This document shows positions 1 to 48,231 of a stretch of 64,000 nucleotides of DNA, piece after piece. The notes under the pieces were generated by a model, which ran no database searches, was not told where the DNA came from, and was given only the letters and a program-made list of their open reading frames with translations. Source of the DNA: Zopfochytrium polystomum (lineage: Eukaryota; Chytridiomycota; Chytridiomycetes; Chytridiales; Chytridiaceae); NCBI GenBank assembly GCA_025765615.1, contig JAIVFJ010000128.1:1-64000 (forward strand). The letters run 5' to 3'. The stretch's first letter is position 1. Every line of letters starts with the position of its first letter. Position numbers and translations under genes: made by a program.

Positions 1-3000
1 TCTGTCATCCTGGGATTACCATGGCTGCAAGCCCAGAACCCTGCCATTGATTGGGTCACTGGTCAAGTCCAACCTCCACCAATCGGAACAGTCACCCAAA
101 ACTCAAGTCAAGCCCCCAAGTCTCATGCTCCCAAGTCCTTGATTCAAGGTTCACAGCCAGCCAAGACTCAAATGCCACAGTTCACAGTTCACAGTCAAGA
201 TTCAAGTAGAGCTCATAGAGCTCACAGTCATGGCCATGACTCTTGTTCACAGAACCCACAGTCAAGGATTCAAGTACCACAGTTCACAGTCCACATTCAA
301 GATTCAAGTTCCACAGCTCACAGTCTTTGCCAAGAACAGAACTCTCAGTCAAAGATTCAAGAATCACAGTTCCCAGTCAAGAATTCAAGCCCCACTGCTG
401 AGGAGCACGACAACCTGGACCCATCAGACCTTTTGCTGGCATCCAAGCTACCAAAAGAATATCTCCCTTATGCTGATGTGTTTTCCAAGACCAAGGCAGA
501 CCTGCTACCAGCTCAGAGGCCTTATGACTGTGAAATCCCACTCAAGGATGAAACTTGCAGCCCACCTTTCAAGCCACTGTACCACCTCTCTCCACCAGAA
601 GCCAAGGCCCTCCAAGAATACATTGAAGAAATGCTGAACAAGGGATTCATCCAACCTTCCAAGTCACCAGCTGGAGCTCCCATCTTTTTTGTCAAGAAGA
701 AGGATGGGGGACTGAGACCCTGTGTGGACTATAGAGATCTCAATGAGATGACAGTCAAGAACCGCTATCCACTGCCTCTCATCTCTGAATTACTGGACAA
801 ACTGAGCCATGCAAGGATATTTTCCAAGATTGACCTCAGAGGTGCCTACAATTTGGTCAGAATTAAGCCCCAGGATCAATGGAAGACTGCCTTCAGATGC
901 AAATACGGTCACTTTGAGTACTTGGTTATGCCCTTTGGACTTACCAATGCTCCAGCTATTTTCCAAGGCATGATGAATGACATCTTCAGGGATATTCTGG
1001 ACCTTTTTGTCATTGTCTACCTGGATGATATCCTGGTATTTTCATCTGACACTGCAAGCCATATGGGACATGTCAAGACTGTCTTGGAGAGACTCAGACA
1101 GCATCACCTCTATGCAAAGCTGGAGAAGTGTGAATTCCACAAGACCTCCATTGAGTTTTTGGGGTTCATTGTGTCTGACAAAGGGATCTCCATGGCACCA
1201 GACAAGATCCAAACTATTCTTGAATGGAAGGCTCCAAATTCCATCAAGGATGTTCAAAGCTTCCTTGGATTTTGCAACTTCTACAGAACCTTCATTGCCA
1301 ACTATTCTGCCATAGCCAAGCCTCTCACTGATCTCACCAAGAAGACCACCAAGTTTGAATGGACCCCAGCAGCAGTGCAAGCCTGGCTAGCTCTTAAGAC
1401 AGCAACCACAAGTGTACCACTCCGTAAGCATGTGGATCCCTTGCTTCCCTTCACCTTGGAAACTGATGCCTCAGACTATGCCCTTGGCGCTGTTCTGTCC
1501 CAGCCAAGCTCTCAGGAACCCTCTGCTCCTCTGCATCCAGTGGCATATTACTCCAGGAAGCTGAACAGTGCTGAGTGTAACTACACAGTCCATGACAAGG
1601 AGTTGCTTGCAATTGTGGAAGCATTCAAATTCTGGAGACACTACTTGGCTGGTTCTAAAGGCATCTCTGTCTATTCTGATCACAAGAACCTCACCTTCTT
1701 CAGGGCAAGGAGGTTGCTCAAGCAGAGGCATGCCAGGTGGGCTGAACTGCTCTCTGAGTATGACTTTAAGCTGTGCTATTCTCCTGGCCACCTTAACACT
1801 GTGGCTGATGCCCTGTCAAGAAGAACAGACCTTGCACCTGAAGGGGGAGATGGTTTCACCCCACCATCCAAGACACACCTTTCATTGCTTCCTGACAGTG
1901 TGTGGGCCCATGCTATTTCCAAGGACCCCAAGCCTCACAAGATTCAAATCAGCCAAGAAGAGGAAAAACTTGAGATACTCAAGACAAGGCATGATGCAGC
2001 AACAGCTGGACACCCAGGAGAGCACAAGACATATGAGCTTGTTTCCAGAGACTTCTACTGGCCAGGCATGAGGAAGTACATCAAGAACTATGTCAGCAGC
2101 TGTGAAACCTGTCAAAGAAACAAATCCAGCAGACACAAGCCCTATGGACTTCTGGAGCCCCTCCCAATTGCCATCAGCCCTTGGTCATCAATATCCATGG
2201 ACTTCATTGTGAAACTGCCCCCATCCCATGGATTTGACTCTATCCTTGTTGTCATCTGCAGAAGGACAAAGTTGGCCCATTTCATCCCCTGCACTGAGAA
2301 TATAGATGCACAAGGAACAGCAGACCTGTTTTTGCAGCACATATTCAGGCTCCATGGGCTGCCTCAGTCAATCGTCAGTGACAGAGGACCACAGTTCAGA
2401 TCTCAATTTTGGAAAGCACTCACAGCAGCCCTTGGAATCAAGTCTCAACTGTCAACTGCTTATCACCCTCAGACTGATGGACAAACAGAAAGAACAAACC
2501 AGACTCTGGAGCAGTATTTGAGGTGCTATGTCAGCTATCAACAGGATGATTGGCCCACCCTCCTTCCACTGGCAGAATTTGCTCTCAACAATTCTCTCCA
2601 CTCAAGCACCCAGCTATCTCCTTTCTTTGCAACCTATGGCTTCAATCCAAGAGGAGATCTTCTGGGACAAGAGACCCTATCCAATGTCCAAGCTCCTGCT
2701 GCGGCTTCACACTTACATAAGCTTAAGATCATCAACTCCTTCCTGGACTCCACCCTGAAGCAAGCCCAAGAAGATGCCTCAAGATTTGCCAACACTCACA
2801 GAATGGACCATGACCTTGCTGTGGGTCAGCAAGTTTGGCTTCTGAGGAAGAACTTGCAGACCAAAAGACCAAGTCCCAAGCTAGACAACCTCAAGTTGGG
2901 TCCTTTCAAGATCTTGGAGCAAATCAATCCAGTCACCTTCAAGCTGGATCTCCCTGCATCCATGAAGATCCACCCAGTTTTCCATGTCAGCCTTTTAGAG

Positions 3001-3270
3001 AAGTTTGTGGCCAATTCCATTCCAGGCAGAGTTGTTCCTCCTCCTCCTCCAGTTGAGGTAGAAGGTGAAGAGGAATTTGAGGTTGAACAAATCTTGGATG
3101 CCAAGTGGTTTGGAAGAACACTCAAGTTCCTTGTTAAGTGGAAAGGTTACTCAGATGCTGACAACACCTGGGAGCCTGAGTCAAACCTCACTCACTGCCA
3201 AGACCTTCTGCTCGAGTTCAAGACCAGGTACCCCACCAAGTTGCAGAAGAGGCCTAAAAGGGGGAGATGA
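1..3270 (+). CDS. Element A polyprotein: protease end, RT, RNase H, integrase, chromodomain
   Basis: The frame is open from base 1, so the 5' end is cut by the window edge. It begins with the protease tail ILGLPWLQAQNPAIDW. A Ser/Gln/His-rich linker follows, built from imperfect repeats of PQFTVHSQDSS. RT is at about 480-1300, with the KKKDGGLRPCVDYRDLN block and catalytic YLDD near 1019. RNase H starts at TDASDYALGA near 1465. Integrase has an HHCC zinc module (GHPGEHK to CETCQRN, about 1990-2120) and the D, D, E core in SMDFIVKLP, VSDRGPQF and TDGQTERTN. A GPF module lies near 2900 and a C-terminal chromodomain (FLVKWKGY, NTWEPESNL) at about 3077-3235. Chromodomains of this class are known to steer integration to marked chromatin. 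The stop codon touches the LTR start. Confidence 0.95.
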   Translation, partial: SVILGLPWLQAQNPAIDWVTGQVQPPPIGTVTQNSSQAPKSHAPKSLIQGSQPAKTQMPQFTVHSQDSSRAHRAHSHGHDSCSQNPQSRIQVPQFTVHIQDSSSTAHSLCQEQNSQSKIQESQFPVKNSSPTAEEHDNLDPSDLLLASKLPKEYLPYADVFSKTKADLLPAQRPYDCEIPLKDETCSPPFKPLYHLSPPEAKALQEYIEEMLNKGFIQPSKSPAGAPIFFVKKKDGGLRPCVDYRDLNEMTVKNRYPLPLISELLDKLSHARIFSKIDLRGAYNLVRIKPQDQWKTAFRCKYGHFEYLVMPFGLTNAPAIFQGMMNDIFRDILDLFVIVYLDDILVFSSDTASHMGHVKTVLERLRQHHLYAKLEKCEFHKTSIEFLGFIVSDKGISMAPDKIQTILEWKAPNSIKDVQSFLGFCNFYRTFIANYSAIAKPLTDLTKKTTKFEWTPAAVQAWLALKTATTSVPLRKHVDPLLPFTLETDASDYALGAVLSQPSSQEPSAPLHPVAYYSRKLNSAECNYTVHDKELLAIVEAFKFWRHYLAGSKGISVYSDHKNLTFFRARRLLKQRHARWAELLSEYDFKLCYSPGHLNTVADALSRRTDLAPEGGDGFTPPSKTHLSLLPDSVWAHAISKDPKPHKIQISQEEEKLEILKTRHDAATAGHPGEHKTYELVSRDFYWPGMRKYIKNYVSSCETCQRNKSSRHKPYGLLEPLPIAISPWSSISMDFIVKLPPSHGFDSILVVICRRTKLAHFIPCTENIDAQGTADLFLQHIFRLHGLPQSIVSDRGPQFRSQFWKALTAALGIKSQLSTAYHPQTDGQTERTNQTLEQYLRCYVSYQQDDWPTLLPLAEFALNNSLHSSTQLSPFFATYGFNPRGDLLGQETLSNVQAPAAASHLHKLKIINSFLDSTLKQAQEDASRFANTHRMDHDLAVGQQVWLLRKNLQTKRPSPKLDNLKLGPFKILEQINPVTFKLDLPASMKIHPVFHVSLLEKFVANSIPGRVVPPPPPVEVEGEEEFEVEQILDAKWFGRTLKFLVKWKGYSDADNTWEPESNLTHCQDLLLEFKTRYPTKLQKRPKRGR

Positions 3271-3470: not shown

Positions 3471-5309
3471 GGGGATGGGGGACCTGTCCCATCCCTCAAG
3501 TGAATTATTGTTTCCAATACAATCATCACTCCTCTCAGTTCCTTGTCTGCCTTGTCCTGTCCTGCCCTGTTCCTGACAGATACCTTTAACCCCACCGACT
3601 TTAATTTACTCCGGTCTGCGTCACCTTTACCTATCTCACTGGTGTTGCCTTATGGCGTCAAGGTCCCCTCGCCCGCCCGTGACATGGGGTTTACACTAGC
3701 CAGCATTTTCACAGATCGCATGGACTTAGTGAAACCACAATGGCTTGTTTACCATTTTCCTGCTCAAGCACCATCTGTGCAGCACATCAACCTCCCGTAC
3801 CTGTTGTTTCTTCAACCTGATGGCTCGTGGCGCTTCTGTGCTGACTTCAGGAAACTGAATGAAATCACAATCAAGGACCGATATCCACTCCCCCGAATTG
3901 AGGAAGTCTTTGATGCAATTAGTAACAAATGCATCTTTAGTGCCATGGATTTGCTCAGTGGCTTTTGGCAAATCCCTGTTAAAGAAGAGGATCGCCACAA
4001 AACGGCGTTTATATCTTCGCAAGGCCTCTTTGAGTTTAAAGTCATGCCCTTCGGCCTTTGTAATAGTCCCCCAACTTTCCAAAGAGCGATGGATCATGTT
4101 CTTGCTGGCATCAAGTGGTTATACTGCATGGTGTATGTAGATGATGTTGTTGTGTACTCCAAAACACTCAATGAACACTTTGAGCACCTTGAAGGTGTCT
4201 TCGCGCGTTTCTCAGAGTACAACCTGAAGTTGAAACCCTCCAAGTGCAATCTGTTCCACTTGGATCTCCCATTCCTCGGACATCGTGTCTCCCAGGCAGG
4301 TCTCCGCAAAGACCCTGCTAAAATGGTTGAACTCGACCAGTACCCGGTGCCGAAGACTTTGAACCAGCTTCAGCAGTTCTTGGGATTCGCCAACTACTTT
4401 AAGCGTTTCATCCCAAACTATTCAGATAAGGTTCAACCTTTAACGATCTGTTATCCCACAAACTTCCATTTGTTTGGACAGAGCGTCAGGACGAGGCCTT
4501 CAACCTTGTCCGCAACGAGTTGAAAGTCAATACAATTCTCTCTATCCCACAGAAAGGGGATAAGCTCCTCATTGAAGTCGACGCCTCAGGCTACGCCCTT
4601 GGCGCTGCCCTTTACATTGTGGACCCACAGGAACCCCATAACCGAGAGAAGCGAAAACCTGTTGCTTTTGCTTCCCGCGTTCTTGCTGATGCTGAGACTC
4701 GCTATTGGACTCACGATCGTGAAGGTCTTGCTATTGTGTGGGCTGTTGACACCTTTGAGCGCTACCTGTTTGGTCAGTCATTCATTGTCGAAACAGACCA
4801 CGCACCACTCCTGCAGCTGTTTAAGAAAGCACCACTTACTGGACGCTTTGCCCGCTGGGCTTACCAGCTCTCTGACTATGACATCGAACTTGTTCATGTC
4901 TCTGGTAAAAAGAACGTCGTAGCTGACGCCCTCTCCCGAGTCTTCCTTGGGCCTGCTGCTCGTTCTCACGAAAATGTCCCTCCAGAGGAGGACCACACAT
5001 CTATTTTGCCTACCCCACAACCAGAACAGGGGGATGGAGCGAAAAAAGAGGTACTCAATAAGGAGCCTTCTCCCCTTGCCGACCCTGAGTTCCCTGGCTT
5101 GGGTCACCTTGATACTATGTACCAATCTCTGTTTATGCAACAGCACCAGGAGATGGAAAGTCTCCGTGCAGCTGCTGATGCCCTGCCCTGCAAACATTGA
5201 ACCAGACCCGGTTATCAAGAAGAACCTGTTACGCCATGCTCTCACTCGCATTCGACGTGCACCACCAAAACCACCTGTGTTTGTAGAGCCCAAGTGGAAG
5301 CCTTCACTG

Positions 5310-6165
5310 AACATCTCCACCTGGAATGTGAATGGAATTAATTCCTGGCTCAAAGTTGCCCGCAAGGCTGGTTTACCTTATGCCCAGGACCCGGATCTTG
5401 GTCGGTGCCTTGAAAACTATTTGAACTCTCAGTCTTCAGCCATTGTCTGTCTCCAGGAGACTCGCCTTGGCCCAAAGAGCCAGAAGCTCATCGATCACCT
5501 CAGTAAAATGAAGGATTGGAGATGTATCCTCCGTGACCCCCGTACCGGACGGAACGGAGTAGCTATCTTTTATCGCTCTGACCTTAACGGTTCAGAATAT
5601 GAAATAGCAGGGGATGCCCAGCACTATGCAGAAGGTCGTGTTGCAGCCCTCGTGGTGGGAGAATATGCAGTGATGACCTGGTATGCACCAAGTGCTTTTG
5701 GTGACGATACTGGTCTCCGTCAGTCCTACAAGATGAAGTTTCTTAACGAGATGGCAGATAATTGTTCTGACCTTCTTGCACGCAGTTACAAAGTTATTAT
5801 AGCTGCTGACCTCAATATTGCTCATACTGACATTGATGTGTATTCACAACTCCGGAAAGAGATGGAAATTGCGAAACGGGACCTTCCCAACTTGCCTTAA
5901 CGAAGAAAGGACTTGGCTCTCTCGTTTCCTGGACTTGGGTTTCACTGATGCTTTTCAGGGCCCATCATCCTACCGAGCCTGGTTTGACATGGACCAACAA
6001 GGCCCGTGACACGCCTTATTGGTTCCCTCTACTCCGTGTAGACTACTTCCTTGTGAGTAACAACATCCCTCCTTCTGTGTATGATGTTCGTATTCATTAT
6101 GATATACCTGCCGACTCAGAACGAGTTGCTAGTGACCACTATCGCTTGGAGTTACTCACTGCACT
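5310..6165 (+). other. ExoIII/APE-type endonuclease domain inside element B
   Basis: It matches the exonuclease III/AP-endonuclease branch of the endonuclease-exonuclease-phosphatase fold. In order: STWNVNGIN (the Asn of motif I), CLQETRLG (metal-binding Glu), RNGVAIFY, TWYAPSA (Tyr), AADLNIAHTDIDV (catalytic Asp and Asn), EERTWLSRFLDLGFTDAF, LRVDYFLVS (Asp) and ASDHYRLEL (Asp-His pair). All residues needed for catalysis in the family are present. The DLNIAH..ID motif is typical of cellular AP endonucleases; LINE endonucleases usually read GDFN. Two 1-base shifts, near 5880 and 6000, fall inside the domain. Upstream is the RNase H tail, downstream the integrase zinc module, so it sits within the pol reading order. 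Confidence 0.88.
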
Positions 6166-7229
6166 GGAAGCACCCCTGAGGGTACTCCCCCCTGATGTCA
6201 ATGAGCTTCGAGAAGCCTTTACCTTTTTAGATGAACTTAAGTCAACCAAGACTGAGGCCGACCGAGTGGTCCAGTTGTTGGACAACAAAGTTGCCCTTCG
6301 TGACCTCCAACTTCGAGACCCGTATTTTGGGCCCATCCTCCGCTTCCGTGAGGAAGGAACCATACCTGACGACTCAGATGCTAAGGCTATGAGCGCTCAG
6401 GCTGCCCTGACCATTGTGAAGGATGGAGTCCTTTATGTTATTAGGAACTCCTTTTCGTACCTGGCCCGAAAGTCCCCACTGAGGCTTGCAGTTGCTGTCC
6501 CCGATGGGCTCCGACGCGAGGTGCTCCGACTCATGCACGATGAGCCTTTCTCTGGCCACCTTGGCTCTAGAAAGGTCCTAGAAACCATGTCTGATCGTTT
6601 CTACTGGCCCAACATGTCCAGAGACTTACGCAACCATGTCGCCAGCTGCCATGTTTGCCAGAAGAGCAAGAGTGTTCCAGCCCGAATTGGAACTCTCCAT
6701 CCCATACCTATTGGAAACGCCCCCTGGGAGCGTGTCGCTGTTGATTTTGCAGGACCACTTAAGGAAACTCCTGAAGGTCACAAGTACATCATGATTGTCC
6801 TTGATTACTTCACCCGATGGGTTGAGGCTATCCCTGTCCCTGAAATTACTGCTGAGACTGCTGCCCAGGCTCTTGTGGAGCAGGTATTCTGCCGACATGG
6901 AATTCCTGTTTACCTTCATTCTGATAGAGGTCAACCCTTCACAAGTGCCCTGTTTGGTGCACTTGGAAAGGCCCTTGGCTTGAAAAAGTCCTTTACGACA
7001 CCACGATGGCCTCGTGCCAACGGAGCTGTCGAACGGTCTATACGAACTCTGAAGGCAATGATTCGTGCTTACATTGACCAGCAAACCCATGATGACTGGC
7101 CTTCTGTACTCCCGTATGTCCTCTTTTGCATACCGAACCCATGTCCATGCTTTGACTGGAGAAACGCCGTTCTTCCTGATGCATGGAAGAGATGCACGTT
7201 TACCTGTTGACTTGTTCACTGGTGTTGAT

Positions 7230-8150
7230 CGAGAAGACTTTGCCTACACTGTAGATGACAGTGACACTGACGAGGACAAAGAAACTGCCCTCTCTATCTC
7301 ATCTACTCCCCAAGGTGAAACGGAGAAAGAAGCTCCTTTGCTGGATGCTGGTCTGCTCTTGGATCCATATGAGCCTCTCACATTTGTTGAAGAACGAAAA
7401 CGAGTGAGGTTTACAACCTCACTAGAAACCCCTTCTGAAGAAGCTGAAGAGGAGTCCTGTCTCTCTTCTGTTCAAGATAACAAAGCTCCGGCAAGTTATG
7501 TTACTAAGGCTGTGTATCCTTCCAAGGCTTTGCCGCTCTTTGCAAAAACGCCTGTCAGTGGTTCTGACCAGTTGCGTATTGTCTTCATTCGAGTAACAAG
7601 CCTCCGAGCGACACTCATGCAGCACTTGCCAAGACGCCTTTGGCCATACCCAACGCAGTACCGGCTTCATGAGATACTGAGTGAGTTGATTCGACAGTTC
7701 TCTATCGATGTTCTCTACATTTGGCGTGAAGCTCCACCTCCCCCACCTCCAGGAGTGAGACCTGAGAAAATCCCGAAGTTCTCGATGCCTAACTTCCTGC
7801 AATGGAGCCTCTCTGAGCCTGCTCTTGCACTTATGCTCCACCGTTCTGCCATGGATGGCAGCGCGTTTTACCTCTACTCCAGCTCCAACTACGTTCGCAG
7901 AGCAGAGTTGATTTACCCTGAGATCATGTCACGCTTCTCAAATGGCTTGATTGGATACTCGAACAATGGAAGTCTTTCACACTTCCATCTCGACAAGCAG
8001 GGAGAACTGAAGTCGGTTGATATCCTCCCTGAACCATGGAATAGGGAAGCACCTATTAATGGGACCAAGCTCTGGCCTGGTCTTTCCGCACCAATCCTGT
8101 TGGATATCCCCAAACCTAGTGGCTTGGAGGAAGAACCACTCACTTGCGCA
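7230..8150 (+). other. Unassigned segment inside the element B integrase C-terminal region
   Basis: After the integrase core end (GETPFFLMHGRDARLPVDLF) the frame continues for about 300 residues before the GPF/Y module. Normally about 60-100 residues separate the two. The first part is acidic (SDTDEDKE). A predicted folded part follows (RIVFIRVTSLRATLMQHL, then EILSELIRQFSIDVLYIWRE), then a proline run, then SMPNFLQWSLSEPALALML and later residues. I recognise no known domain. It is open throughout, which argues that it was under coding constraint until recently. Confidence 0.55.
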
Positions 8151-9179
8151 GTTGAGTTGATTTTGACAGAACCTTATGTTGCTGAGGTTCTCAACCGGTT
8201 GAAGGCAGCGCAAGAGACTGTTATTTCCCGCTCTGAGAAATACAAGGAGGCCCTTCGACAGGCCTCCCTCGATAGAGACAAGGATCCCTACTTTTTCCGA
8301 CTTGGAGAGAAAGCATGGATGGCTGTCCCCCTTGACAACCCTGGTGACATTGGTGGCAAAAGCCGTTCTCTTATTTTCCGGTGGGTCGGACCTGTTCGAG
8401 TCGTCGCCATCACCGGCGAGGACACAAAGACACAGTATAGCATTGTAGAAACATTCCCTGCTGGACAGATTGTGGTACGAACTGTCCATATCTCCCGTCT
8501 GAGACCCTACACCGAGCGGGCTCCTGTAGACTCTGCGGAAGATGCCGTTACCAATAGTCTTGACGACTTTGAGAAAGAGCTTGAAGAGTGGAAGACTGCC
8601 ACTCGGCTCATGAAGAAACCTGCCTCCAAGACCACGACGGCCCCTGGAGTGCATGTTGACTTCCTTAAGAAGTACACTTCGGAGGAAACCGAAGATCAAA
8701 CTGCTGATGTAGAGTATCCTATTGAGAGGATCAAAGGTCATACCTTTGACGGAGAAAAGTATTACTATCTGACCAAGTGGTTAGGATTCTCTACCAAACA
8801 CGATTGGTACCAACTCGAAGAAGATCTTCACCGCCTTGCAGTGCGCGACTACTGGGAATTGGTGAAGACTGATGATCCTGAAGAATATCAGAAACGATTG
8901 AAATGGTCACGGCTTCCAAGGAGCCGCAAGTTCCGTGCGCCAACTGCGAGGGTGGCCACACAGATGATAATGGAGAGAGATCAGCGCTTGCTTCATCCTC
9001 TCACCCCACCAGATTCCAACCCCACCACACAGGCTAGTGCACTGTCTGTACAACCTGCCCCAAGTCAGCCTGTTGCTGGCCTGCCCACACCACAAACTCA
9101 ACCTGTGCCCCTGAGGAGGAGCACACGGTCGAAACCTTCTAAGTAAGAAGTACTCCCTTTGTCACACCTGTGGGTGTGA

Positions 9180-9196
9180 GATTAAAAAAGAGGTAC
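9180..9196 (+). other. Polypurine tract of element B
   Basis: The purine-rich run AAAAAAGAGG stands a few bases before the first base of the 3' LTR at 9197. That is the expected position for the plus-strand primer of an LTR retroelement. It supports the LTR boundary chosen here. Confidence 0.6.
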
Positions 9197-10651
9197 TGTG
9201 AGACTACACCGAGGTCTCAGTGATAAAGTCTAGGATTTTATTCGCAAAAACAAGCGTACCTGTCATAAAACCGCAAGGATCGGGACCCCTATTATTGCTC
9301 CCGGTTCTTTAGTTTCCAAGGCGTTATCAAAGTGTATTTGCGGCTAACCCGTCTTTATTATTGGGTCTGCTTTTACTACTTTCGTCTTAACAGTTTCCGT
9401 TGCACCAGGGTTTTCTCAACATATTTTCTTTTTCGGTGACTAACGGAGACTGCCCGACTGCCTAGGGATGGGGTGCCTGACAGGCTGTACCCCAAGCCCG
9501 CCTAATTTATTATTTATTTTTGGCACTTGTACATACATGCATAGGGTTGGGGGGGACTTAGAGCATTTGTGGTGGATGCTCCAAGTCAGGGGGGTTGACT
9601 TGTCAATTTTCTCTCTCTCTGTTTTTGGGCCATTTCTCTTTTTCCTTTTTTCTTCAATCTGATTTCTGTCCATTGGCACCAATACAGAGTCCCTTCAAAT
9701 CCATCTGGCTTGCAAAGGTGAGGGTAGTGAGAGATGGTACACACCCGGGTGTGTACATGGTCCCTTCGTGGGGCTCCTCTTAAGGGGCCGTGGGTGGGGA
9801 ATGCAGCTGGCCCCACCAGCGACTGTGTGACATTGCCGGCTCTGTGTTGGAGTGAGGATCCCTGGCGCTTGCCCGCCGCGACGACGGTGGTGGTGGTGGT
9901 GGCGACGACGGCGTCGTTGTCCCCCACCTTCCCGTCCCCGCGAGGGTGTTGGTGGCTGCGCCCTGGTGCAGCCCCCGACGCCTGAGAGTTCGATCTACAA
10001 GCGCCTGCCTCGGTCCTATTGCTGTGAGGGCGAGATGTGTGAGTACGAGTGCGATGCGATAAAGCCCGTTGGTCGAGTGATCGTGCCGACGCAGCCCGGC
10101 GGGGTGCGTGTACGATCGCAGGTGTTTCCGCGTGCGAGTTCCCTGCTGGCGACCTTCCGACCCCTACATAGTCGACTCCCTTCTCTCTCTCCCCCCCGTC
10201 GCTGGCGACGACGAGGGCTCCCGCAGCACTGTCCGCGACGAGGGGCGCTAGGTCGCGCCCTGTCCGTCCCGTCGCTATTAACCGCTCCTGTTGTATTTGA
10301 GATTAGGTTCCTGAGATAAAAACCCCCGTTTCCCTCTTCTCTCTCTTTATTCTGCGGTTGTGTTGCGCCCTCGGGAGTGCCCTTCCGTTTCCCCTCGCAT
10401 CGGCCCGCGGCCACGCGAGTAATCGGTGCTCCAGCACCGATCCTTCAGAGGATTGTCCCTCTGAATGTTCATTCTTTGTGTTTGAGACCCCTGTTAGACA
10501 GATCAGTAGGGATACTTCGTGGACTAGGCAAGTAGTAGGGTTGAAACACCCCCTAGACAACAGCCCAATAAAGTTAGTTTTAGCCTATTATTTGCTTTCC
10601 CTCACTCTAGGGCCCAGATCCCAGGGTCAAAGGAGTGAGTATAGTCTCACA
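9197..10651 (+). repeat. 3' LTR of element B (1455 bp)
   Basis: The ends are TGTGAGACTA and TAGTCTCACA, a perfect 10-bp inverted repeat. A second copy at 42699-44137 aligns over its whole length. No ORF inside looks coding; those present are GC-rich and unlike any family. AATAAA occurs at 10567, close to the 3' end. The flank after the LTR is CATTC, the predicted target-site duplicate. Confidence 0.9.
10567..10572 (+). terminator. Polyadenylation signal in the element B LTR
   Basis: AATAAA lies about 80 bp before the LTR end and is conserved in the solo LTR near 44053. It probably marks the R region end for element transcripts. Confidence 0.45.
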
Positions 10652-11576
10652 CATTCACAGTCTTCCACGCTGAGTGAATCTCTTGTCTCAAGGGCTTCCT
10701 GGTCTCTGCAAGTTTCTTCTCATACTGGACTTGTCTCAGCATCAGCCTGCGCACATTCAGTCTCTCAAAGGGTGGTTTCATGGTCAGGTGTGTTCGAAGC
10801 TCAAAAGTGAGCATCCTGTGGTCTGTGAAAGGCAAGTGTTCCTCAGGTGCGTCATGGACAACCAAGTTATGCACAGCTCCAAGTCCAGCTCGATTCACAA
10901 GGAGCAAGTCAGTGACTCCCCTGCCTACAGGGCCAGCAATTCTAGGTGAGAAGGTGGTCCACTGGCCCCGAACTGGATCAACCCTGCTCCATCCTGAACC
11001 ATCAATCCAAGCGCGCCACCAGTCTACCCTCAGCCTAGGCTGCGAGTGAGCACAGCCATACTCCTGCAGTGAAGTGTTGAAATCTCCAATGATCAGAAAG
11101 GGTGCCTGGGGATTAGCCCTGGCAATCCTGTCTGCTGTTGCTGAGAATGACTGAAGCACCTCCAAATCCGTCGAGGGTGCAAAGTACACCACTGCCATGA
11201 TAATCTCTGACATCCTCGCAATGACCCACTCCCCCTTCGCGTCCTTCTCCAGAGTCTGCACCACCAAGTCCTCCTCCATCCTTCTGCCCTTATGAATGGA
11301 CACCCCCTTCTTGCCCTTGTGCCCAAGCCGTTCCTCAAACTCCAACGCTGGCCCCCGTGAGTCAGCAACCAATCCCCTCAATGGGTTATTCTCCACCACA
11401 GTGATCCCAGTGTCCGCCAACAAAATATAATCTGAATGGAAATCTGAAAATGCTTGGTCTATGTTCTTGACATGTCCTGAGAGCGAGCAGTTCAAGTTCA
11501 CAAATCCAAATCTAAGTCCATCAATCATCAAGCATAGCATCGGCACCACTGGAAGCTCCTGTGTCTTCAGCCCCAC
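10652..11576 (-). CDS. LINE ORF2, endonuclease domain (truncated)
   Basis: The product begins near MIDGLRFGFVNLNCSLSGH and has the endonuclease-exonuclease-phosphatase order of LINE endonucleases: VNLNC, HSDYILLADTG, VVYFAPSTD, LIIGDFNTSL, GRGVTDLLLVN and the terminal TDHRMLTFEL. The GDFN form is typical of LINE nicking endonucleases. The frame runs into the element B LTR at 10651, where it is cut. An ATG overlapping the ORF1 stop (ATGATTGATGG) is the likely start, suggesting stop-restart translation; the first ATG of the frame is at 11576. Confidence 0.82.
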
Positions 11577-12885
11577 GAGGCTTGGGTGTCTCTAAAGGTT
11601 CTGCCCCCGTCTCCGGCTCCTTCCCCTTGGCGGGAAAGTGTGACGGGTCGCGAAGCTTCACCTTCAGGTCAGCCACAAACCGGCGGGGCACAAATTCACA
11701 GATAGACTTTGCCAGCAGCACAGAGGGACGGAATGTCGGGTGGTTCAGAATTCCAGCAATACGGCTCAGATATGCACGCACAGCAGCAGCTTCAGCCTCA
11801 GCCCCTGATCGAAGGCGCAAGGGTTTCCAGGGTTCACACTCATCATCCACCACAACCTCAGCCTTTTTACAAGCTGCCACAAACTTGGCCTTCTCAGATT
11901 CCAGAACCCAGCATTCCATCAGCGACGCATGCTTGCCAATCACAGAAATCTCAGGAACTCGGGGGAATCCATTTGCAGCAGTGAATAGCAGTCTCAAACT
12001 GTGGCGGGGTGCAGCCCGGCCAACATCCGATAGATTGGGTCTGACATAAACTGGAACATACTTCGCTCCGTCAAGGGACCACGCAGGCGGGACATAGTCT
12101 GGCGCTGCGCGGCGCGCCTCGACAACGGAGGATCTAGGTCTGAAAATCTGCTTGAGCTTGGTCTCAGTATCAACCTTCGGGTCCGTAATCATCTTGATGC
12201 CCTTGCGGAAATTGTTAGCGAAAAGCGGTTCTGGTGCTTTGGCTGCCGCGATGGCAGCAAAACTTAGCGGGAAACGGCTGTTGGGGGGGGCGCCCCCACC
12301 TCTCCTCAACTGCGGGTGGCCGTGCGACCCCTTCCGCAAGTTCCGCTGCTCAGCCGCCGCCTTCGGCGGCCCTCCTACATCGTCGGCCTCGTCCCTATCG
12401 CTCTCCTCCTCCTCAACGTCATCGTCATCGATCCTCCTCGCCCGTCGGGCGCTCCGCATGTGCTCCAACTCCTCCTCAAGCACCCGGATACGCTCATTCT
12501 TTGCTGCGATGGTGTCCTCCAAGTCAATGATCCTTCCACGAAGTGTGTCGAGGGTCTCCGTAAAGTACTTGCTCTTATCACTCGACTGTCGGTTGAGGCG
12601 CTCCTGCGCCTCCCATCTCCGCTGTTGATTCGCGATGAAGTCAATAAGCTCGGCCGTGGTCGGGGGCACAATGGTATACGAGCTCGAGCCAGTAAGTGTC
12701 GTCTGTGTTTGAAGCGGGGAAGTAGGCGAGTGGTGAGACATAGTGGCGGTGTCGATTGGCGCGGGGACTGTTGCGTCGTGCGGTGCCGGGTTTGCGTCGC
12801 GCGGTGCAGGGTTGGCGTCGCGGGAGTCCACGTCTTCCGAGTTGTCGGAGTCGCTGTCCAAAGGATCACGGAAGGCCGAAGACAC
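11521..12885 (-). CDS. LINE ORF1 (gag-like, coiled coil)
   Basis: The protein has 454 residues. An acidic, Pro/Ala-rich N-terminus leads to a heptad-like coiled coil (about residues 95-150, LEDTIAAKNERIRVLEEELEHM). An Asp/Glu-rich stretch and a conserved-looking C-terminal half follow (KMITDPKVDTETKLKQIF, HSLRLLFTAANGFPRVPE). No zinc knuckle is visible. Position before and overlapping an ORF2 endonuclease is the evidence that this is ORF1 of a LINE. ORF1 proteins are RNA-binding chaperones of the element RNP. A later ATG (MSHHSPTSPL) is a possible alternative start. Confidence 0.72.
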   Translation of the reverse strand: MSSAFRDPLDSDSDNSEDVDSRDANPAPRDANPAPHDATVPAPIDTATMSHHSPTSPLQTQTTLTGSSSYTIVPPTTAELIDFIANQQRRWEAQERLNRQSSDKSKYFTETLDTLRGRIIDLEDTIAAKNERIRVLEEELEHMRSARRARRIDDDDVEEEESDRDEADDVGGPPKAAAEQRNLRKGSHGHPQLRRGGGAPPNSRFPLSFAAIAAAKAPEPLFANNFRKGIKMITDPKVDTETKLKQIFRPRSSVVEARRAAPDYVPPAWSLDGAKYVPVYVRPNLSDVGRAAPRHSLRLLFTAANGFPRVPEISVIGKHASLMECWVLESEKAKFVAACKKAEVVVDDECEPWKPLRLRSGAEAEAAAVRAYLSRIAGILNHPTFRPSVLLAKSICEFVPRRFVADLKVKLRDPSHFPAKGKEPETGAEPLETPKPRGAEDTGASSGADAMLDD

Positions 12886-13076
12886 AGAAGGGGCAGCAGT
12901 GGGGTCGTGAGACGCCGCGCGACCCGCGTTTCGCTGTCGTTGCGTCGATCGAAGGGGGAGTACGGTGTTTCGGGTTACGGGGGGTCCGATCAGGGGTTGT
13001 GGGTGATTCGGTGGAAAGGCCAGTTGCGGTAGCGGTCTGCCAGATCTGACGATTGGCGGCTTCGAGGGCGGCTGCC

Positions 13077-13140
13077 GTACCTAGGAGGGAGTTGAACCCT
13101 CAGGCCCCCCAACTGGGGCTCAACTTTATTCACTAGGCAC
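13077..13140 (-). other. tRNA-like fold lacking a D arm, upstream of the LINE
   Basis: An 8-bp closing stem (GTGCCTAG with CTAGGTAC, one G-U) encloses two hairpins on the minus strand: a CCCC/GGGG stem, and a perfect T-arm-like hairpin GAGGG TTCAACT CCCTC. The TTCAA loop is B-box-like. It resembles a tRNA without its D arm. Function is unknown. Confidence 0.4.
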
Positions 13141-24210: not shown

Positions 24211-27200
24211 TTAAAACTGAATGACAGAAGAAAAGCCATTGCCAAGAAGAAGAATTGAATGTTTGGAGAGAAGTTGCTGGTTGGCACGAAATTCAGGAGG
24301 GAGCCAGCAAAAGACTTTTGTGCTGGTGGGGGAGAACCAAACACCATTACTAATAAAAGACACAGAAGCAGTTTGGCCGTCCTGCAGTTTCTTCCCTGAC
24401 ACATCACGAATGCAAAAACTTGATTTCTGGTTGGAAAAAATGGTTCCAAAGGGCTCAGCACCCTCATGTGATTGGAGTGCAGTTGCAAGATCGATGCAAT
24501 ATGCTTTTCCATCCCAGTCCCTCAAAACAACAGACCGCCCATCAGCACTGAATCCATCAGACATTCTGAAAGAGAAACCACCAAACTCGTGCATCAACTG
24601 CCAGTGGGCTTTGGTTGACTTCTCAGACGAGCTTAAATAAGCTCCGCCAGATGATGCTTTCCAAATCCAGACTCTCTTGTTATGACTTTCAGACACAATA
24701 AACTGCCCATCAGGACTGAATGCTGCAGAAGTCACCTCTTCAGTGTGTCCCACCAACTTGTGCATCTCCTGGCCGGTGGACGCATTCCAAATCCTGACTG
24801 TCTTGTCATAACTTCCAGACACAACAAACTGCCCGTCAGGACTGAATGCTGCAGAAGTGACCCGATCGGTGTGTCCCACCAGCTTGTGCATCTCCTGGCC
24901 TGTGGATGCATTCCAAATCCTGACTGTCTTGTCACTACTTCCAGACACAACAAACTGCCCATCTGGACTGAATGCTGCAGAGTTGACCCCATTGGTGTGT
25001 CCCACCAGCTTGTGCATCTCCTTGCCTGTGGATGCATTCCAAATCCTGACTTTCTTGTCTAAACTTCCAGACACAACAAACTGCCCGTCAGGACTGAATG
25101 CTGCAGAAGTGACCCGATTGGTGTGTCCCACCAGCTTGTGCATCTCCTGGCCTGTGAATGCATTCCAAATACTGACTGATGCATAATCATTTCCGGACAC
25201 AACAAACTGCCCATCAGGACTGAATGATGCAAAAGTGACCCAATCGGTGTGTCCCACTAGCTGGTGCATCTCCTCGTCAGTGGACGCATTCCAAATCCTG
25301 ACTGTCTTGTCCCAACTTCCAGACACAACAAACTGCCCATCAGGACTGAATGCTGCAGAAGTCACCTGTTTGGTGTGTCCCATCAGCTTGTGTATCTCCT
25401 GGCCAGTGTATGCATTCCAAATCCGGACTGTCTTGTCATAACTTCCAGACACAACAAGCTGCCCATCGGGACTGAATGCTGCAGAAGTCACCTGTTCGGT
25501 GTGTCCCACCAACTTGTGCATCTCCTGGCCAGTGGATGCATTCCAAATCCTGACTGTCCCGTCGTCACATCCAGACACAACAAACTGCCCATCAGGACTG
25601 AATGCTGCAGAGTTGACCCGATTGGTGTGTCCCACCAGCTTGTGCATCTCCTCGCCAGTCGATGCATTCCAAATCCTGACGGTCTCGTCAGCACTTCCAG
25701 ACACAACAAACTGCCCATCAGGACTGAATTCTGCAGATAAAACAAAATCAGAGTGTCCCTCAAGAACACCCATGCAAGCAGGCCACACTGTTGGCTGCCC
25801 CTTCACAACTCTTGGGAATGACAAACTGCGTGGCAACTTCTCTACAAATTTCTTGTGAAATTCAGAACCACTTGGAGAGAAAGGAATGGCAGTGAAATAA
25901 ACCTGTAACGCTGATGCCTTGAGTGGAATGAGAAACTTTTGCAAAACTCTTTTCATGTCTGTCATCAACGTTCCCAAGGTTTTCTTTCCAGAATTGTTCA
26001 ACAAAGTCTGTAGCTTCGTCATGGCAGGAATCACCAGACTGAGTGAGTCCAATAAGCTGCAGGCCTCGAGGAAGTGATGTCCGTGATTTTCAAGAAAAGT
26101 TTGCATCTCCATCAAGAGACTGTTTGAGGTTGTCTGATACTCCGCTGAAAATCTCTTTGGGGAGAGTTTCCTTGAGTCATGAAAGCAGTGCTCCCAAAAA
26201 TGCTTCACTACATATCTGACATGGTCAGGGAGCCCATTTGCAACTTTTTCATTGAAATCAGGGACCTCAGTGTGAAACTTGTCAAATGGTAGATCACACA
26301 TGTTGAACTTTAGATTCTTGTTCAGTGCACTGATGCAGAGTCTTGCAAATTGTTCATGACCATCATTCAACTCAATCCTGACAGACAGCCCACATCGGGA
26401 TGGGTCAGTCAGGTAATCCTTTACAGACTTGTGGAAAATCCTGATCTTCTTTGAGGAAGCATCAAGCACAAGGATGGGATCAATCATGCGGATGCATCTC
26501 TTCACATTTCCAGGGCTCGTCCCATCCAGCAGCGACACCATGGCTGCTGCAGTCAGTGGTTCATATGCAAGGACAATGATGGACAGCACAGTGTGAAGCA
26601 AGGGCTCCAATTGGCTCAAAATGGCCAAGTCCAAAGTGCCAGCAAAGATCCTGTCATACATCTTATCAATGCGGCCATTCATCTTGTCTCCCTCTGGCAG
26701 AGCATTGATTTCATCAAGGGTAATGACCTCAGCATTGGAATCCCTCAGGTAGGTGCAAGCAGTCACAAGCCAGACAAAAATCCCAGATGACTTTGACACA
26801 AGAAGCTTGGATCCATCGTCCACCACAGATTGCTCAGCGTTCAACGTTATCAAAAAATTCTGCGTGTACTCAATCTGATCCTTGATGTTGTCTTCAGCAG
26901 TTGGCTCAATTTCAGTGACAGGAATCATCTCAAAGGCCTTTGAAATGTCTACTTCAGGGCGTCCAGTTACCAGCAACTTCACATTTGAAGGAAGCAGCCT
27001 GTTCAGCTCCTGAAACAATGACAGAATATCACTCCTTTTGCCAACAGCACCACACTCGTCCAGGGCATCCACAACCAGCACAACTGGCACATCTAGCTGC
27101 TTGGCATCAACAACGCTCTGCAGCGGCTGAACAAGCAGCACCTTCATCATCTCAAACACAGGTCTGGACAAAATATCTGGATTGTCTTGCTTGATGTGAA

Positions 27201-29019
27201 GAAGAATTTCTCCATACCGAAAGCTGAACTTTGCAAGACTGAATACCAGGGTCAGAACCAGGTTGCAAGCGCTGTTGCGACGTTCATCGTCATGCTTGCA
27301 AAAGAACATGCCACCAAGCATGCCAAAAGCCTCCAGCTCTCTGGAGACCATGGCAGCCATCACAGACTTGCCCACTCCAGCCACACCCTTCAACCACATC
27401 ACCCTGTTGGTGCTGGCTGCTGAGGGTTTGTCTGGTGACAGAAACTGAAACACTCTATTGAGGAGCCACTGTCTGGAGCCAGAAAGCACATTCTTCAGAA
27501 GGGCCTGCCTTTCATCATCCATGATGTCAGACAGGGGAGTCAGCCACATTTCCAATTCATTCAATCTGGGTCTGGAGAGTGAAATATCTGAAAATGCATT
27601 GGTAGTCTTCTTCTCAGCCTTCCTTCGACTGTACACGTTCCTTGCAGCAGTGACAACTCTGTTGTACATCCAAAGTTGTGTGAGAAAGGTTCAAGAAACA
27701 CAACAAAAACAAAAAAATGCAATTGCATTACTTGAGAACATCGCTGTCAGGATGGGCAAAGGGCCCATTCAGCTCCAGGACCATCTTGACAGTTTGAGAT
27801 ACAGTGTGGCGGCGAGGGCTCAAAGGATGAGCATGAAGTGAGTCAGGAAACTTGGAGTGATCAAATGTGCTGAACTTTTTCTCCAACAACTCCTTCCTCC
27901 CATCTTCGAGAGTGGCAGCCACCTGCCCCGAAAGAAGAACAGGCAGGATGTCGACTCCTCTCTCTTCCTTCATCTGAAGTGCAAGTTCCCACTAATGATC
28001 ACATTTAGCAACCAGAAAATCAGATCAACAGGCTCACCTCCAACAAGCAATTGTCCAGCTTTTTGTCAGCCTCAAGCATCCGCTTCATGCTCAAATCAGA
28101 ACACAGCAGAATAATAACTGAAGAGTGATACAAGCCTGACATGAAGTTGACATCCCACTTCTGGCCAAAAGCTTGGCACTTTGCATCCCAAAAAGTCTGG
28201 AGACCGCTCCTTTTGGTCTCTTTGTTGAAATCATTCAGTGGCACTGTTCTTCCCAAAGCTTTCTCCATTTCATGGAAAAGGTCCTTCGCAAACACCGTTT
28301 CTGATGCCTGGCGGTGGCTGTTGGAGGGTCAGATATGATTGTCGGAACAAACATGCAGCACAGACCTAATAATGAAAGGATGCTTTTGAACACTGGGCTC
28401 ACACTCCCAATCTCTTGGAATCAACCCCATCCTCTTATCTGATGGAGAATTGGAAACAACACAGGTTAGTCTCTGATGATCATTCCTAAACTTCACGACC
28501 CACCCTTGTCAGGCACCAGGCTCTCATCAAAGTTATCACCATTACCTGCAGGAGAAGTGGTTGTGCCAGCTCCAGATGAAGTGGGAGCAGTGTGGGTTGC
28601 TCCAGGAGAGTGAGCAGCTGGAACAGTGCTATTCCCACCACCAGCAGCAGCAGCAGTGGTTGTGCTTGCTGCAGGTGATGCAGTTGGAACAGTTTGGGTT
28701 GCTCCAGAAGGGTTCAAAACTGGCTCAGCAAGCACCTTAAAAATTTTAAGAAAGAAATGAAAAAGCAGATGAGAAGTAAACTTACTTTCCACTTGAAGTT
28801 CTGAGAAAGAAGGCTTGCCAGGTCGTCTTTCACATCAAGGATCATTTTACCACCAGTTGCAGAGTCCACGTACACCAATTCAATGGGACCAGCCATATTC
28901 CAGTGTGAAGCCACAAGCTGGTGCAGATCGTCAAAGCCAGTGCTGGCAGGAACTTCAATCTTCCTTCCAGTATTGCCAAGCTCAAAAACCACAGTCCAGG
29001 AATTCACGTGGCTCGCCAT
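24211..29019 (-). CDS. TIR-NACHT-WD40 receptor, copy 1
   Basis: The inferred exons are 29019-28786, 28735-28504, 28438-28366, 28317-28038, 27991-27732 and 27658-24211. They sum to 4527 nt, giving 1508 residues in frame. Residues 1-78 form an unassigned domain (WTVVFELGNTGRKIEVPAST). A Thr/Ala/Gly linker follows to about 155. A TIR-like domain covers about 177-340: FIISHR, FWDAKCQAFGQKWDVNFMSG, and LLEWELALQMKEERG, whose Glu fits the TIR catalytic position. The NACHT has P-loop GVAGVGKS near 450 and Walker B VVLVVDALDEC near 560. Nine WD40 repeats fill about 990-1370. The family acts as STAND-class ATP-dependent receptors. The fifth intron is absent from copy 2. Known fungal relatives mediate incompatibility or immunity; the function here is inferred. 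Confidence 0.82.
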
Positions 29020-35852: not shown

Positions 35853-38800
35853 TTAAAACTGAATGACAGAAGAAAAGCCATTGCCAAGAAGAAGAATTGA
35901 ATGTTTGGTGAGGAGTTGCTTGTCACCTCGAAATTCGGGAGGTAGCCAGCAAAAGACTTTGGTGCTTGTGGACGAGAACCAAACGCCATTTATCATAACA
36001 AACACAGGAGCAGTTTGGCAATAATGCAGTTTCTTCCCTGACACATCACGAAAACAAAAACTCGATTTCTGGATGCAAGAAATGGTTTCAGAAAGTCCAG
36101 CACTCTCTTGTATTTGGATTCCAGTTGCAAGGTTGATGCAAATTCCTTTCCCATTCTGGTCCCTCAAAACAACAGACTGCCCATCAGCACTGAATCCGTA
36201 AGATACTCTGAAAGAGAAACCATCAAGCTTGTGCATCAACTGCCAGTGGGCTTTCGTTGACTTCTTAAACGAGCTTAAATAATCTCCGCCAGTGGATGAA
36301 TTCCAAATACTGACAGTCTTGTCTCCACTTCCAGCCACAACAAACTGCCCATCAGGACTGAATGCTGCAGATTTGACCACACCATTGTCTCCCACCAGCT
36401 TGTGCATCTCCTGGCCAGAAGATGCATTCCAAATCCTGACTGTCTTGTCGCTACTGCCAGACACAACAAACTGTCCATCAGGACTGAATGCTGCAGAGTT
36501 GACCCGTTTGTTATGTCCCACCAGCTTGTGCATTTTCTGGCCAGTAGCCGCATTCCAAATCCTAACTGTCTCGTCATTACTTCCAGACACAACAAACTGT
36601 CCATCAGGACTGAATGCTGCAGAGGTGACAAAAGAAGAGTGTCCCACCAGCTTATGCATCTCCTGGCCAGTGGATGCAGTCCAAATCCTGACTGTATTGT
36701 CATTACTTCCAGACACAACAAACTGTCCATCGCGACTGAATGATGCAGAAGTGACCCAATCAGTGTGTCCAACCTCCTCATGCATCTCCTTGTCAGGAGA
36801 TGCATTCCAAATCCTGACTGTCTTGTCATAACTTCCAGACAGAACAAGCTGCCCATCAGGACTGAATGCTGCAGAGGAGACCGAATTGGTGTGTCCCACC
36901 AGCTTGTGCATCTCCTGGCCAGTGTATGCATTCCAAATCCGGACTGTCTTGTCCCAACCTCCAGACACAACAAACTGCCCATCAGGACTGAATGCTGCAG
37001 AAATGACCTGTTCGGTGTGTCCCTCCAGCTTGTGCATCGCCTCGCCAGTGGATGCATTCCAAATACTGACTGTCCCGTCTCCATTTCCAGTCACAATAAA
37101 CTGTCCATCAGGACTGAATGCTCCAGATTTGACCACATCGTTGTGTCCCACCAGCTTGTGCATCTCCTGGCCAGTGGATGCATTCCAGATCCTAACTGTC
37201 TCGTCATTACTTCCAGACACAACAAACTGTCCATCACGACTGAATGCTGCAAAGTTGACCCAATCAGTGTGTCCCACCAGCTTGTGCATCTCCTTGCTAG
37301 TGGATGCATTCCAAATCCTGACTGTGTTGTCCCAACTTCCAGACACAACAAACTGCCCATCAGGACTGAATGCAGCAGAGGAGACTGGATAGGTGTGTCC
37401 CACCAGCTTGTGCATCTCCTGGCCAGTAGATGCATTCCAAATCCGGACTATTGCGTCTCCACCTCCAGACACAACAAACTGCCCATCAGGACTGAATGCT
37501 GCAGAGGTGAGCGAATCAGTGTGTCCCACCAGCTTGTGCATTTCCTGGCTTGTGGATACATTCCAAATCCTGACTGTCTTGTCCCAACCTCCAGACACAA
37601 CAAAGTGCCCATCAGGACTGAATGCTGCACATGAGACAGATCGAGAGTGTCCCTCCAGAACATTCATGCAAGCAGGCCAGACTGTTGGCTGCCCCTTCAC
37701 AACTCTTGGGAATGACAAATCAGGTGGCAGCTTCTCCACAAATTTTTGTGAAATTCAGAACCACTTGGAGAGAATGGAACAGCAGTGAAATAAACTTGCA
37801 ATGCTGATGCCTTTAGTGGAATGAGAAACTTTTGCAAAACTCTTTTCATGTCTGTCATCAACGTTTCCAAGCTTTCTTTTCCAGAACCATTCAGCAAAGT
37901 CTGAAGTTTCGTCATGGCAGGAATCACCAGATTGAGTGAGTCCAACAAGCTGCAGGCCTCCAGGAAGTGGTGTCCGTGATTTTCAAGAAAATCTTGCAAC
38001 TCCGCCAAGAGACTGTTTGAGGTTGTCTGATTCTCCACTGAAAATATCTTTGGGGAGCGTTCCCTTGAGGCATAAAAGAAGTGCTCCCAGAAGTGCTTCA
38101 CTGCATATCTGACATGCTCAGGGATCCCTTTTGCAACTTTTTCATTGAAATCAGAGACCTCGGTGTGAAACTCGTCAAAGGGCAGATCACACATATTGAA
38201 CTTTAGGTGCTTTTTCAGTGCACTGATGCACAGACTCGCAAATTGTGTGTGTCCATCATTCAACTCAATCCTGACAGAGAGCCCACATTGGGATGGGTCA
38301 GTCAGGTAATCCTTCACAGACTTGTGGAAAATCCTGATCTTCTTTGAGGAGCCATCAAGCACAAGGATGGGATCAAGCGCGCGGATGCATCTCTTCACAT
38401 TTCCAGGGCTCTCCCCATCCAGCAGTGACACCATGGCTGCTGCAGTCAGTGGTTCATACGCAAGGACAATGATGGACAGCACAGTCTGAAGCAAGGACTC
38501 CAACTGGCTCAACTTGGCCGATTTCAAAATGCCAGCAAAGATCCTGTCATACATCTTATCAATGTGGCCATTCATCTTGCCTCCCTCTGGCAGAGAATTT
38601 ATTTCATCAAGAGTAATGACCTCAGCATTGGAGTCCCTCAGGTAGTTGCAAGCATTGACAAGCCAGAGAAAAATCCCAGATGACTTTGACACGAGAGTCT
38701 TGGATCCATCATCCACCACAGATTCCTCAGCATTCAATGTTATCAGGCAATTCCGCGTGTACTCAATCAGATCCTTATTGTTGTCTTCAGCAGTTGGCTC

Positions 38801-48132: not shown

Positions 48133-48231
48133 GTCTGTGGTCTGAGCGATCAACGTCCACCTTGTCACGAATCCCACACAAAAGAGAAAAAAAAAAAAAA
48201 AAAAAAACGAGAAACTCCCACACAGATCAGG
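48133..48231. promoter_or_regulatory. Bidirectional promoter region of PPWD1 and NAA50
   Basis: Only 99 bp separate the two divergent start codons. The segment contains an A run of about 24 bases near 48188-48212, a sequence type known to exclude nucleosomes. No TATA box is visible. Confidence 0.6.

Follow-up and report, generated by a model that had tools for sequence, protein, structure and literature searches.

A Ty3-type retrotransposon lineage of Zopfochytrium polystomum with an ExoIII-type nuclease domain between RNase H and integrase

Why should a retrotransposon that encodes an integrase also carry a nuclease of the ExoIII/AP-endonuclease type? The question is raised by a locus in the chytrid Zopfochytrium polystomum. 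It lies in the window, the whole stretch of 64,000 nucleotides that was analysed (positions 1-64000, part of contig C128, JAIVFJ010000128.1); the genome searched comprises ~80 Mb in 761 contigs. Chitin synthase, expected of a fungus, is represented in this genome by 21 PF01644 matches. On the plus strand, at window 3504-9146, the Pfam matches follow one another as RVT_1, RNase H, Exo_endo_phos, Integrase_H2C2, rve and, weakly, a chromodomain (Table 1). A preliminary description had placed the nuclease (EN) domain between the RNase H and the integrase of a Ty3-type element, and this placement is borne out by the Pfam order in the window, by open frames elsewhere in the genome and by four database proteins.

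The window copy is truncated at its 5' end, and its reading frame is interrupted where RT meets RNase H, where RNase H meets EN, at two points within EN and once more downstream of the integrase core. The contig begins at window position 1, and no 5' LTR was found in the stretch compared; only the 3' LTR is visible. The number of LTR candidates of the window family scored in the genome, 40, is a lower bound.

Table 1. Features of the EN-bearing copy, in window coordinates
Feature	Position	Strand	Evidence
Reverse transcriptase, 5'-truncated copy	3504..4523	+	Pfam RVT_1 ~3816-4289, E 3.6e-35
RNase H, in a frame different from that of RT	4430..5200 (domain ~4475-4879)	+	Pfam RT_RNaseH E 1.5e-29; 79% identity to L032 query
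ExoIII-type nuclease domain, N-terminal three quarters, single frame	5319..5852	+	Pfam PF03372 E 1.6e-12, profile positions 2-167 of 225; AlphaFold model
ExoIII domain, middle piece, shifted frame	5875..5955	+	Three-frame translation compared with L033
ExoIII domain, C-terminal part, same frame as integrase	5963..6139	+	Pfam PF03372 positions 175-225, weak alone, E 0.0079
Integrase: H2C2 zinc domain 6497-6673, DDE core 6719-7006	6497..7018	+	Pfam E 7.5e-22 and 4.1e-12; 72% identity to L032 query
Chromodomain-like region, Pol C-terminus	8721..8858	+	Pfam Chromo E 0.0014, 18.9 bits, under curated cut-off 25.1
Polypurine tract AAAAAAGAGG, then TAC, then LTR	9184..9193	+	Sequence reading
3' LTR, 1,455 bp, TGTGAGACTA...TAGTCTCACA	9197..10651	+	40 genome candidates scored, most bounded here within a few bases; ends read

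The surroundings of this copy contain other elements and genes. Directly upstream, at window 1-3270 (+), an ordinary chromodomain Ty3 element encodes RT, RNase H, integrase, SH3_Tf2-1 and Chromo in a single open frame (1,089 aa) and has no ExoIII domain. Beside the LTR, two overlapping frames at window 10647-13080 (−), one with a LINE-type Exo_endo_phos match of 23.7 bits, just under the cut-off, are probably the remains of a non-LTR element. Farther along, WD40 repeat frames lie at window 24211-27690 (−), 35853-39859 (−) and 47362-48444 (−). A NACHT/NPHP3_N frame at 37697-39859 (−) lies directly upstream of the WD40 frame 35853-37754, an arrangement that we take to resemble fungal NACHT-WD40 (NLR-like) genes.

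A search of the genome with the EN domain gave 93 matches, a lower bound in which pieces of broken copies are counted separately. The lineage of the window element, here called class A, has 17 copies other than the window's with a complete, stop-free domain (PF03372 profile positions 2-225 in one frame). By identity to the window domain three sub-groups are distinguished: Ia, to which the window copy belongs, with up to 97%, Ib/Ic with 55-59%, and II with 42%. Open frames reach 3,741 codons on C40 and C61 and 3,604 codons on C251. The stretches read from two of them, 3,300 aa of the C40 frame (L031) and 2,368 aa of the C251 frame (L032), run from RT through RNase H and EN to integrase (RT-RH-EN-IN) uninterrupted, with the integrase D, D, E residues and the RT YVDD box legible by eye. 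The protease is less clear by Pfam: L032 matches Asp_protease_2 weakly (E 0.048), and L031 has no match; a D-S-G motif is readable. The chromodomain scores under the Pfam cut-off in the window, in L032 and in the database protein P0136, above it in P0123 and P0130, and is not listed for P0124.

The constancy of the domain is seen in the interval between RNase H and integrase. Searching the genome with both regions of L032 and keeping only loci collinear for both queries yielded 23 class A loci; loci with a single match or a rearrangement (for example C182, C98, C338, C22, C131 and C492) fall outside this count. The interval measures ~1.46 to 1.81 kb and contains EN matches in 22 of the 23, in some cases interrupted by stops or frameshifts, and the one remaining locus (C158) has a shortened interval that keeps EN fragments. 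Copies of the family lacking the domain, which the preliminary description had named as grounds for regarding it as a private insertion, are thus absent among these loci. An ordinary and abundant Ty3 family of the same genome, ~34-37% identical and often in 1,255-codon frames, has an interval of ~168 bp in the pairs inspected (for example C61:109813-110256 and 110425-110928), too short to accommodate EN; that interval occurs in none of the 23 collinear class A loci. Since these abundant elements have no room for EN, the domain is dispensable for Ty3 transposition as such. In class A, the ExoIII-type domain is confirmed as a real and fixed part of the element.

In a sequence comparison with the PDB, the best match of the L032 domain is ExoIII (9.9e-26); APE1 is matched at ~1e-16, and none of the 54 matches is a LINE endonuclease. 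The domain of a second lineage, class C, described below, matches ExoIII at 5.1e-23. A LINE-type endonuclease of the same genome (L042) reaches only ~2e-5, for APE1 and LINE-1 alike. The LINE-type rows used here (L041, L042, L043, L047 and window 10647-11591) were named from sequence, and Pfam found no RT domain in the two that were scanned, whose stretches end soon after EN. By these comparisons the class A domain is assigned to the ExoIII/AP-endonuclease type and not to the LINE type. The AlphaFold model of the window's 220-aa fragment (mean pLDDT 78.8, ends disordered) finds its best matches in AP endonucleases, with query TM-scores of 0.50 to 0.60 among the best 50 matches listed; it was built on an alignment with ExoIII homologues, so the fold is not independent of that family.

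The active site is preserved. In what we take to be the residue numbering of APE1, positioned by alignment, the equivalents of N68, E96, Y171, D210, N212, D283, D308 and H309 are unchanged in 22 of 22 domains; these were chosen as intact, 18 from the genome (three of them class B or C) and four from database proteins. The full ExoIII domain with catalytic residues claimed in the preliminary description is therefore found in one frame in each of these 22 domains, but not in the window copy, where it is split over three frames. Two substrate-contact positions differ in part from APE1. In the copies from the genome, Ser or Ala stands at the N174 equivalent and Leu, Phe or Met at the W280 equivalent; N174 is retained in all four database domains and W280 in three of the four. 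Because of these differences strict specificity for abasic sites is not assured, and a broader role as 3'-phosphodiesterase or exonuclease is possible.

In the EN tree, built with 13 proteins from 120 listed (3,938 found), the EN clade has 99/95 support, and the best tree sets the element domains within the ExoIII/APE family on a branch of their own, apart from the host APE1-type gene. AU tests reject none of the alternatives of kinship with host APE1 (p 0.10), host APN2 (p 0.42) or LINE endonucleases (p 0.27). The tree with APE1/ExoIII and LINE endonucleases that had been proposed as a check thus gives the domain its own branch in the ExoIII/APE family, but it leaves all three kinships standing. 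Capture of a host repair gene, as suggested earlier, is possible.

The fusion is also found outside this genome. With the part of L032 that runs from RT to the C-terminus as query, 991 proteins were found. PF03372 is present in four of the 120 listed, and PF14529 in a fifth. The four fusion proteins are P0123 (3,338 aa), P0124 (3,585 aa), P0130 (3,286 aa) and P0136 (1,710 aa, without RT). EN lies between RNase H and integrase in all four, in the order RT-RH-EN-IN in the first three and RH-EN-IN in P0136. Their sources are jgi or ena records, probably metagenomes, in which the longest contigs measure 6 to 18 kb. The EN region alone, used as query among large proteins, gave 677 candidates, none significant at the low word sensitivity of that search, and viral contigs scanned with the EN alignment gave 32 pattern matches, none of which was confirmed.

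The phylogeny of RT and RNase H places these proteins with class A. In a tree with 27 EN-free reference proteins, taken from the same 120 listed, the genome's two class A rows and P0123, P0124 and P0130 form one clade with 100/100 support and a long stem. These three are also the only ones of the tree's 30 database proteins with more than 50% identity to L032 in the RT-RNase H region. Within this sample, the class A lineage had EN by its base, and no member has lost it. Class A itself lies in a weakly supported RT group (81/54), apart from the clade that unites the window's ordinary chromodomain element with plant and algal rows; the tree contains no labelled chromovirus references.

Two other, distant Ty3-like lineages of the genome carry an ExoIII-type domain. 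Class B has an RT very different from that of class A. Its copy on C104 reads RT-RH-EN-IN in a single open frame, and its copy on C20 has RT, RNase H and EN in a common frame and the integrase core in another. Class C was read on C55, and C79 and C143 are assigned to it by equal match score. One of its frames encodes a gag-like region and a protease; in another, of 1,416 codons, EN is followed by RT, RNase H and the integrase H2C2 domain, so that EN stands before RT. By Pfam, RNase H and H2C2 are present, RT is weak, and no DDE core is detected. Classes B and C would be LTR elements judging by their Pol; no LTRs of either were found in the stretches searched.

Classes B and C have sister EN domains (100/99). 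These group with class A in a second EN tree (95/93), from which two long-branched LINE-type rows had been removed, and not in the first. A single capture followed by movement within Pol is plausible on these trees. A broader scenario is put forward tentatively, with doubt somewhat outweighing trust: LTR retrotransposons would have captured an ExoIII-type nuclease once, kept it under strong selection in several lineages and shifted it within Pol, so that it stands either ahead of RT or between RNase H and integrase. It would serve as an on-board module for base-excision repair of the cDNA and for cleaning of its ends.

Other frames with this fold occur elsewhere in the genome. Contigs C44, C253 and C515 of the genome (G000) contain clustered EEP-domain frames, many of ~1,270-1,300 codons and spaced a few to tens of kb apart, which are probably LINEs inserted in clusters. 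A further frame with an EEP domain (L036, G000:C66:173600-175800) has beside it what looks like a nucleotidyltransferase.

The LTRs and their flanks record how class A elements insert. The C40 element (C40:100622-115299) is 14,678 bp long; its two 908-bp LTRs are identical, and its target duplication is CGGT. Elements on C61 and C13 have identical 1,097-bp LTR pairs and the duplications GCCT and AGCA, respectively. On C49 (G000:C49:54463-83481), two EN-bearing elements share LTRs in a tandem LTR-internal-LTR-internal-LTR array, whose LTRs are identical save for one gap and which is flanked by one 4-bp duplication, TTCT. A solo LTR on C442 is flanked by AAGG. Nine window-family solo LTRs, picked from the 40 scored candidates before their flanks were inspected, all have exact 4-bp duplications of differing sequence. 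Exact 4-bp target duplications are thus found in 14 of 14 cases: the insertions on C40, C61, C13 and C49, the C442 solo LTR and the nine solo LTRs of the window family. These duplications and the complete LTR ends are the marks of insertion by a DDE integrase in class A.

Further details of the ends come from other copies. The sub-group Ib element on C117 (G000:C117:95596 onward) has an LTR longer than 5.4 kb, whose two ends agree at 5,404 of 5,405 positions compared. In C117 and in those clade II copies that were read, the 3' LTR is likewise preceded by AAAAAGAGGTAC, and TAC lies between polypurine tract and LTR in the class A copies read, across three sub-groups. For C251 no LTR pair was found in the stretches compared. 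The primer-binding site gave no convincing match to the element itself or to a tRNA, the comparison covering the window's two tRNAs. At G000:C442:1740-20360 one insertion flank is found twice, after the element's 3' LTR and after the solo LTR; this is a duplicated or joined-allele region.

Comparison of dN/dS across copies, named as a check in the preliminary description, bears on whether the domain is used. By the Nei-Gojobori method, EN has a dN/dS of 0.046 between C251 and C461 (dS 0.65) and 0.087 between C251 and C136 (dS 1.5), the two measurable pairs of seven; dS was saturated in the other five. One close pair each gives 0.050 for RNase H (C251 and C136) and 0.046 for integrase (C40 and C24), and two deep pairs give 0.115 and 0.136 for RNase H. 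The EN domain is under strong purifying selection, and so low a dN/dS is not expected of a passenger. Such selection implies that the domain is used and is silent on what for.

The reading preferred here is of a Ty3-type lineage whose single polyprotein includes an ExoIII/AP-endonuclease-type nuclease predicted to act on the element's own cDNA before integration, a prediction for which trust and doubt are about evenly balanced. The EN domain would be cut free by the protease and packaged alongside RT and integrase, and it would be enzymatically active on cDNA and not on the target site. There it would repair abasic or blocked sites and trim the 3' ends before integrase inserts the cDNA. The domain keeps a constant place next to RNase H and integrase, its active site is conserved, and the insertions are of the integrase type, all of which suggests a role between synthesis and joining. 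The most likely function would be to mend abasic or 3'-blocked sites and to clean 3' ends, and a repair role on cDNA is our best guess, with a supporting analogy in the dUTPase of fungal Ty3 Pol and the DEDDy exonuclease of bdelloid LTR elements. The function of dUTPase is to keep DNA free of uracil. In L032, L031 and L034, Pfam lists no dUTPase or glycosylase that could be a partner in uracil repair, and the genome has one dUTPase match only, a 129-aa frame on C11.

Other explanations have to be set against this one. A close rival to repair is that the nuclease processes cDNA ends, removing extra 3' nucleotides after primer removal or degrading primer remnants and so replacing part of the 3' processing by integrase. 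ExoIII enzymes are 3' exonucleases, and the TAC between polypurine tract and LTR means that plus-strand priming at the end of the tract would leave extra nucleotides. This argument presumes, however, a plus-strand start at the tract end; integrases normally carry out 3' processing alone, and the primer-binding site has no convincing match to the two tRNAs compared or to the element. End processing as the domain's main task is unlikely, though it deserves serious weight. An action of the nuclease on host DNA or host repair, rather than on element cDNA, is improbable. It has an analogy only, in orchid Ty3 elements with an RNA demethylase, an accessory enzyme proposed to act against RNA or host factors (PMC9289625), whereas embedding in Pol between RNase H and integrase would suggest joint action with them.

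It is slightly less probable still that the nuclease acts on the target, by nicking DNA or opening abasic sites as LINE endonucleases do or by serving a route independent of integrase. Endonuclease activity is expected of the fold, and class C has the LINE-like order EN-RT, but the complete LTR ends, the integrase domains and the 14 exact 4-bp duplications of varied sequence all point the other way. They disfavour the opening of abasic or nicked sites for integration, one of the roles proposed in the preliminary description. An integrase-independent route, also proposed there, is unlikely because open polyproteins contain integrase domains and because of the duplications, which speak equally against target-primed insertion as the normal route. 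That the domain is a passenger or an artefact is refuted and has next to no probability. The frameshifted window copy might suggest a private insertion, a nested element such as a LINE, or an assembly chimera; intact copies on separate contigs and the same fusion in four database proteins rule these out and make a chimera untenable, and the strong purifying selection argues likewise.

A comparison with known systems sets the element in context. Class A shares with Ty3/Gypsy elements (Metaviridae), including chromoviruses, the LTRs, polypurine tract, protease-like motif, RT, RNase H, H2C2-DDE integrase, C-terminal chromodomain-like region and short target duplication of fixed length. It differs in adding an ExoIII-type domain of ~280 aa between RNase H and integrase, in its very long frames (3,604 to 3,741 codons) and in the length of the element, as measured on C40. 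With the ExoIII/APE1 family (PF03372) the domain shares a full-length match and a core of Asn, Glu, Tyr, Asp, Asn, Asp, Asp and His that is invariant in the domains checked; unlike that family it lies inside a retroelement polyprotein, forms its own clade and has changed N174 and W280 equivalents in the genome's copies. LINEs likewise join an EEP-fold endonuclease and RT in one protein, and class C shares their EN-RT order. In contrast to LINEs, class A has LTRs, an integrase, 4-bp duplications of fixed length and its ExoIII-like score.

Among elements with acquired enzymes, PosPlaTy3 and other fungal Ty3 elements that carry dUTPase within Pol are alike in having captured a DNA-hygiene enzyme, at varying positions (PMC2864245); their dUTPase prevents uracil incorporation, whereas the nuclease here would come into play once damage has occurred. 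The LTR elements of bdelloids that encode a DEDDy exonuclease have also acquired a nuclease found in other retroelements (PMC5408684), but theirs is a separate ORF3 and of another nuclease family. Exo_endo_phos is noted in some Kuafuorterviruses, which are LTR elements as well (PMC11673190); there it is sporadic and perhaps host-derived, and the RT motif is IADD, VADD or LADD, compared with YVDD in L032 and L031. Complex elements with added domains are mentioned in PMC3248453, with no ExoIII in its text. Other papers name PF03372 in the legend to a figure of Symbiodinium LINE and DIRS elements (PMC5890265), ascribe Exo_endo_phos to LINEs (PMC10799480), report it in locust non-LTR elements (PMC3391268), or include Exo_endo_phos_2 and rve only within a list of enriched domains (PMC5374152). 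Among open-access PMC papers, judged by title or abstract, none was recognised that describes an ExoIII domain in this position of Pol; a relative may have been published or catalogued elsewhere, in subscription papers, preprints or repeat databases.

An ExoIII-type nuclease kept beside integrase in a deep Ty3 lineage with young copies suggests that cDNA damage or unfinished ends limit the success of retrotransposons. The EN-bearing Ty3 lineage is a natural system in which to test whether they do.
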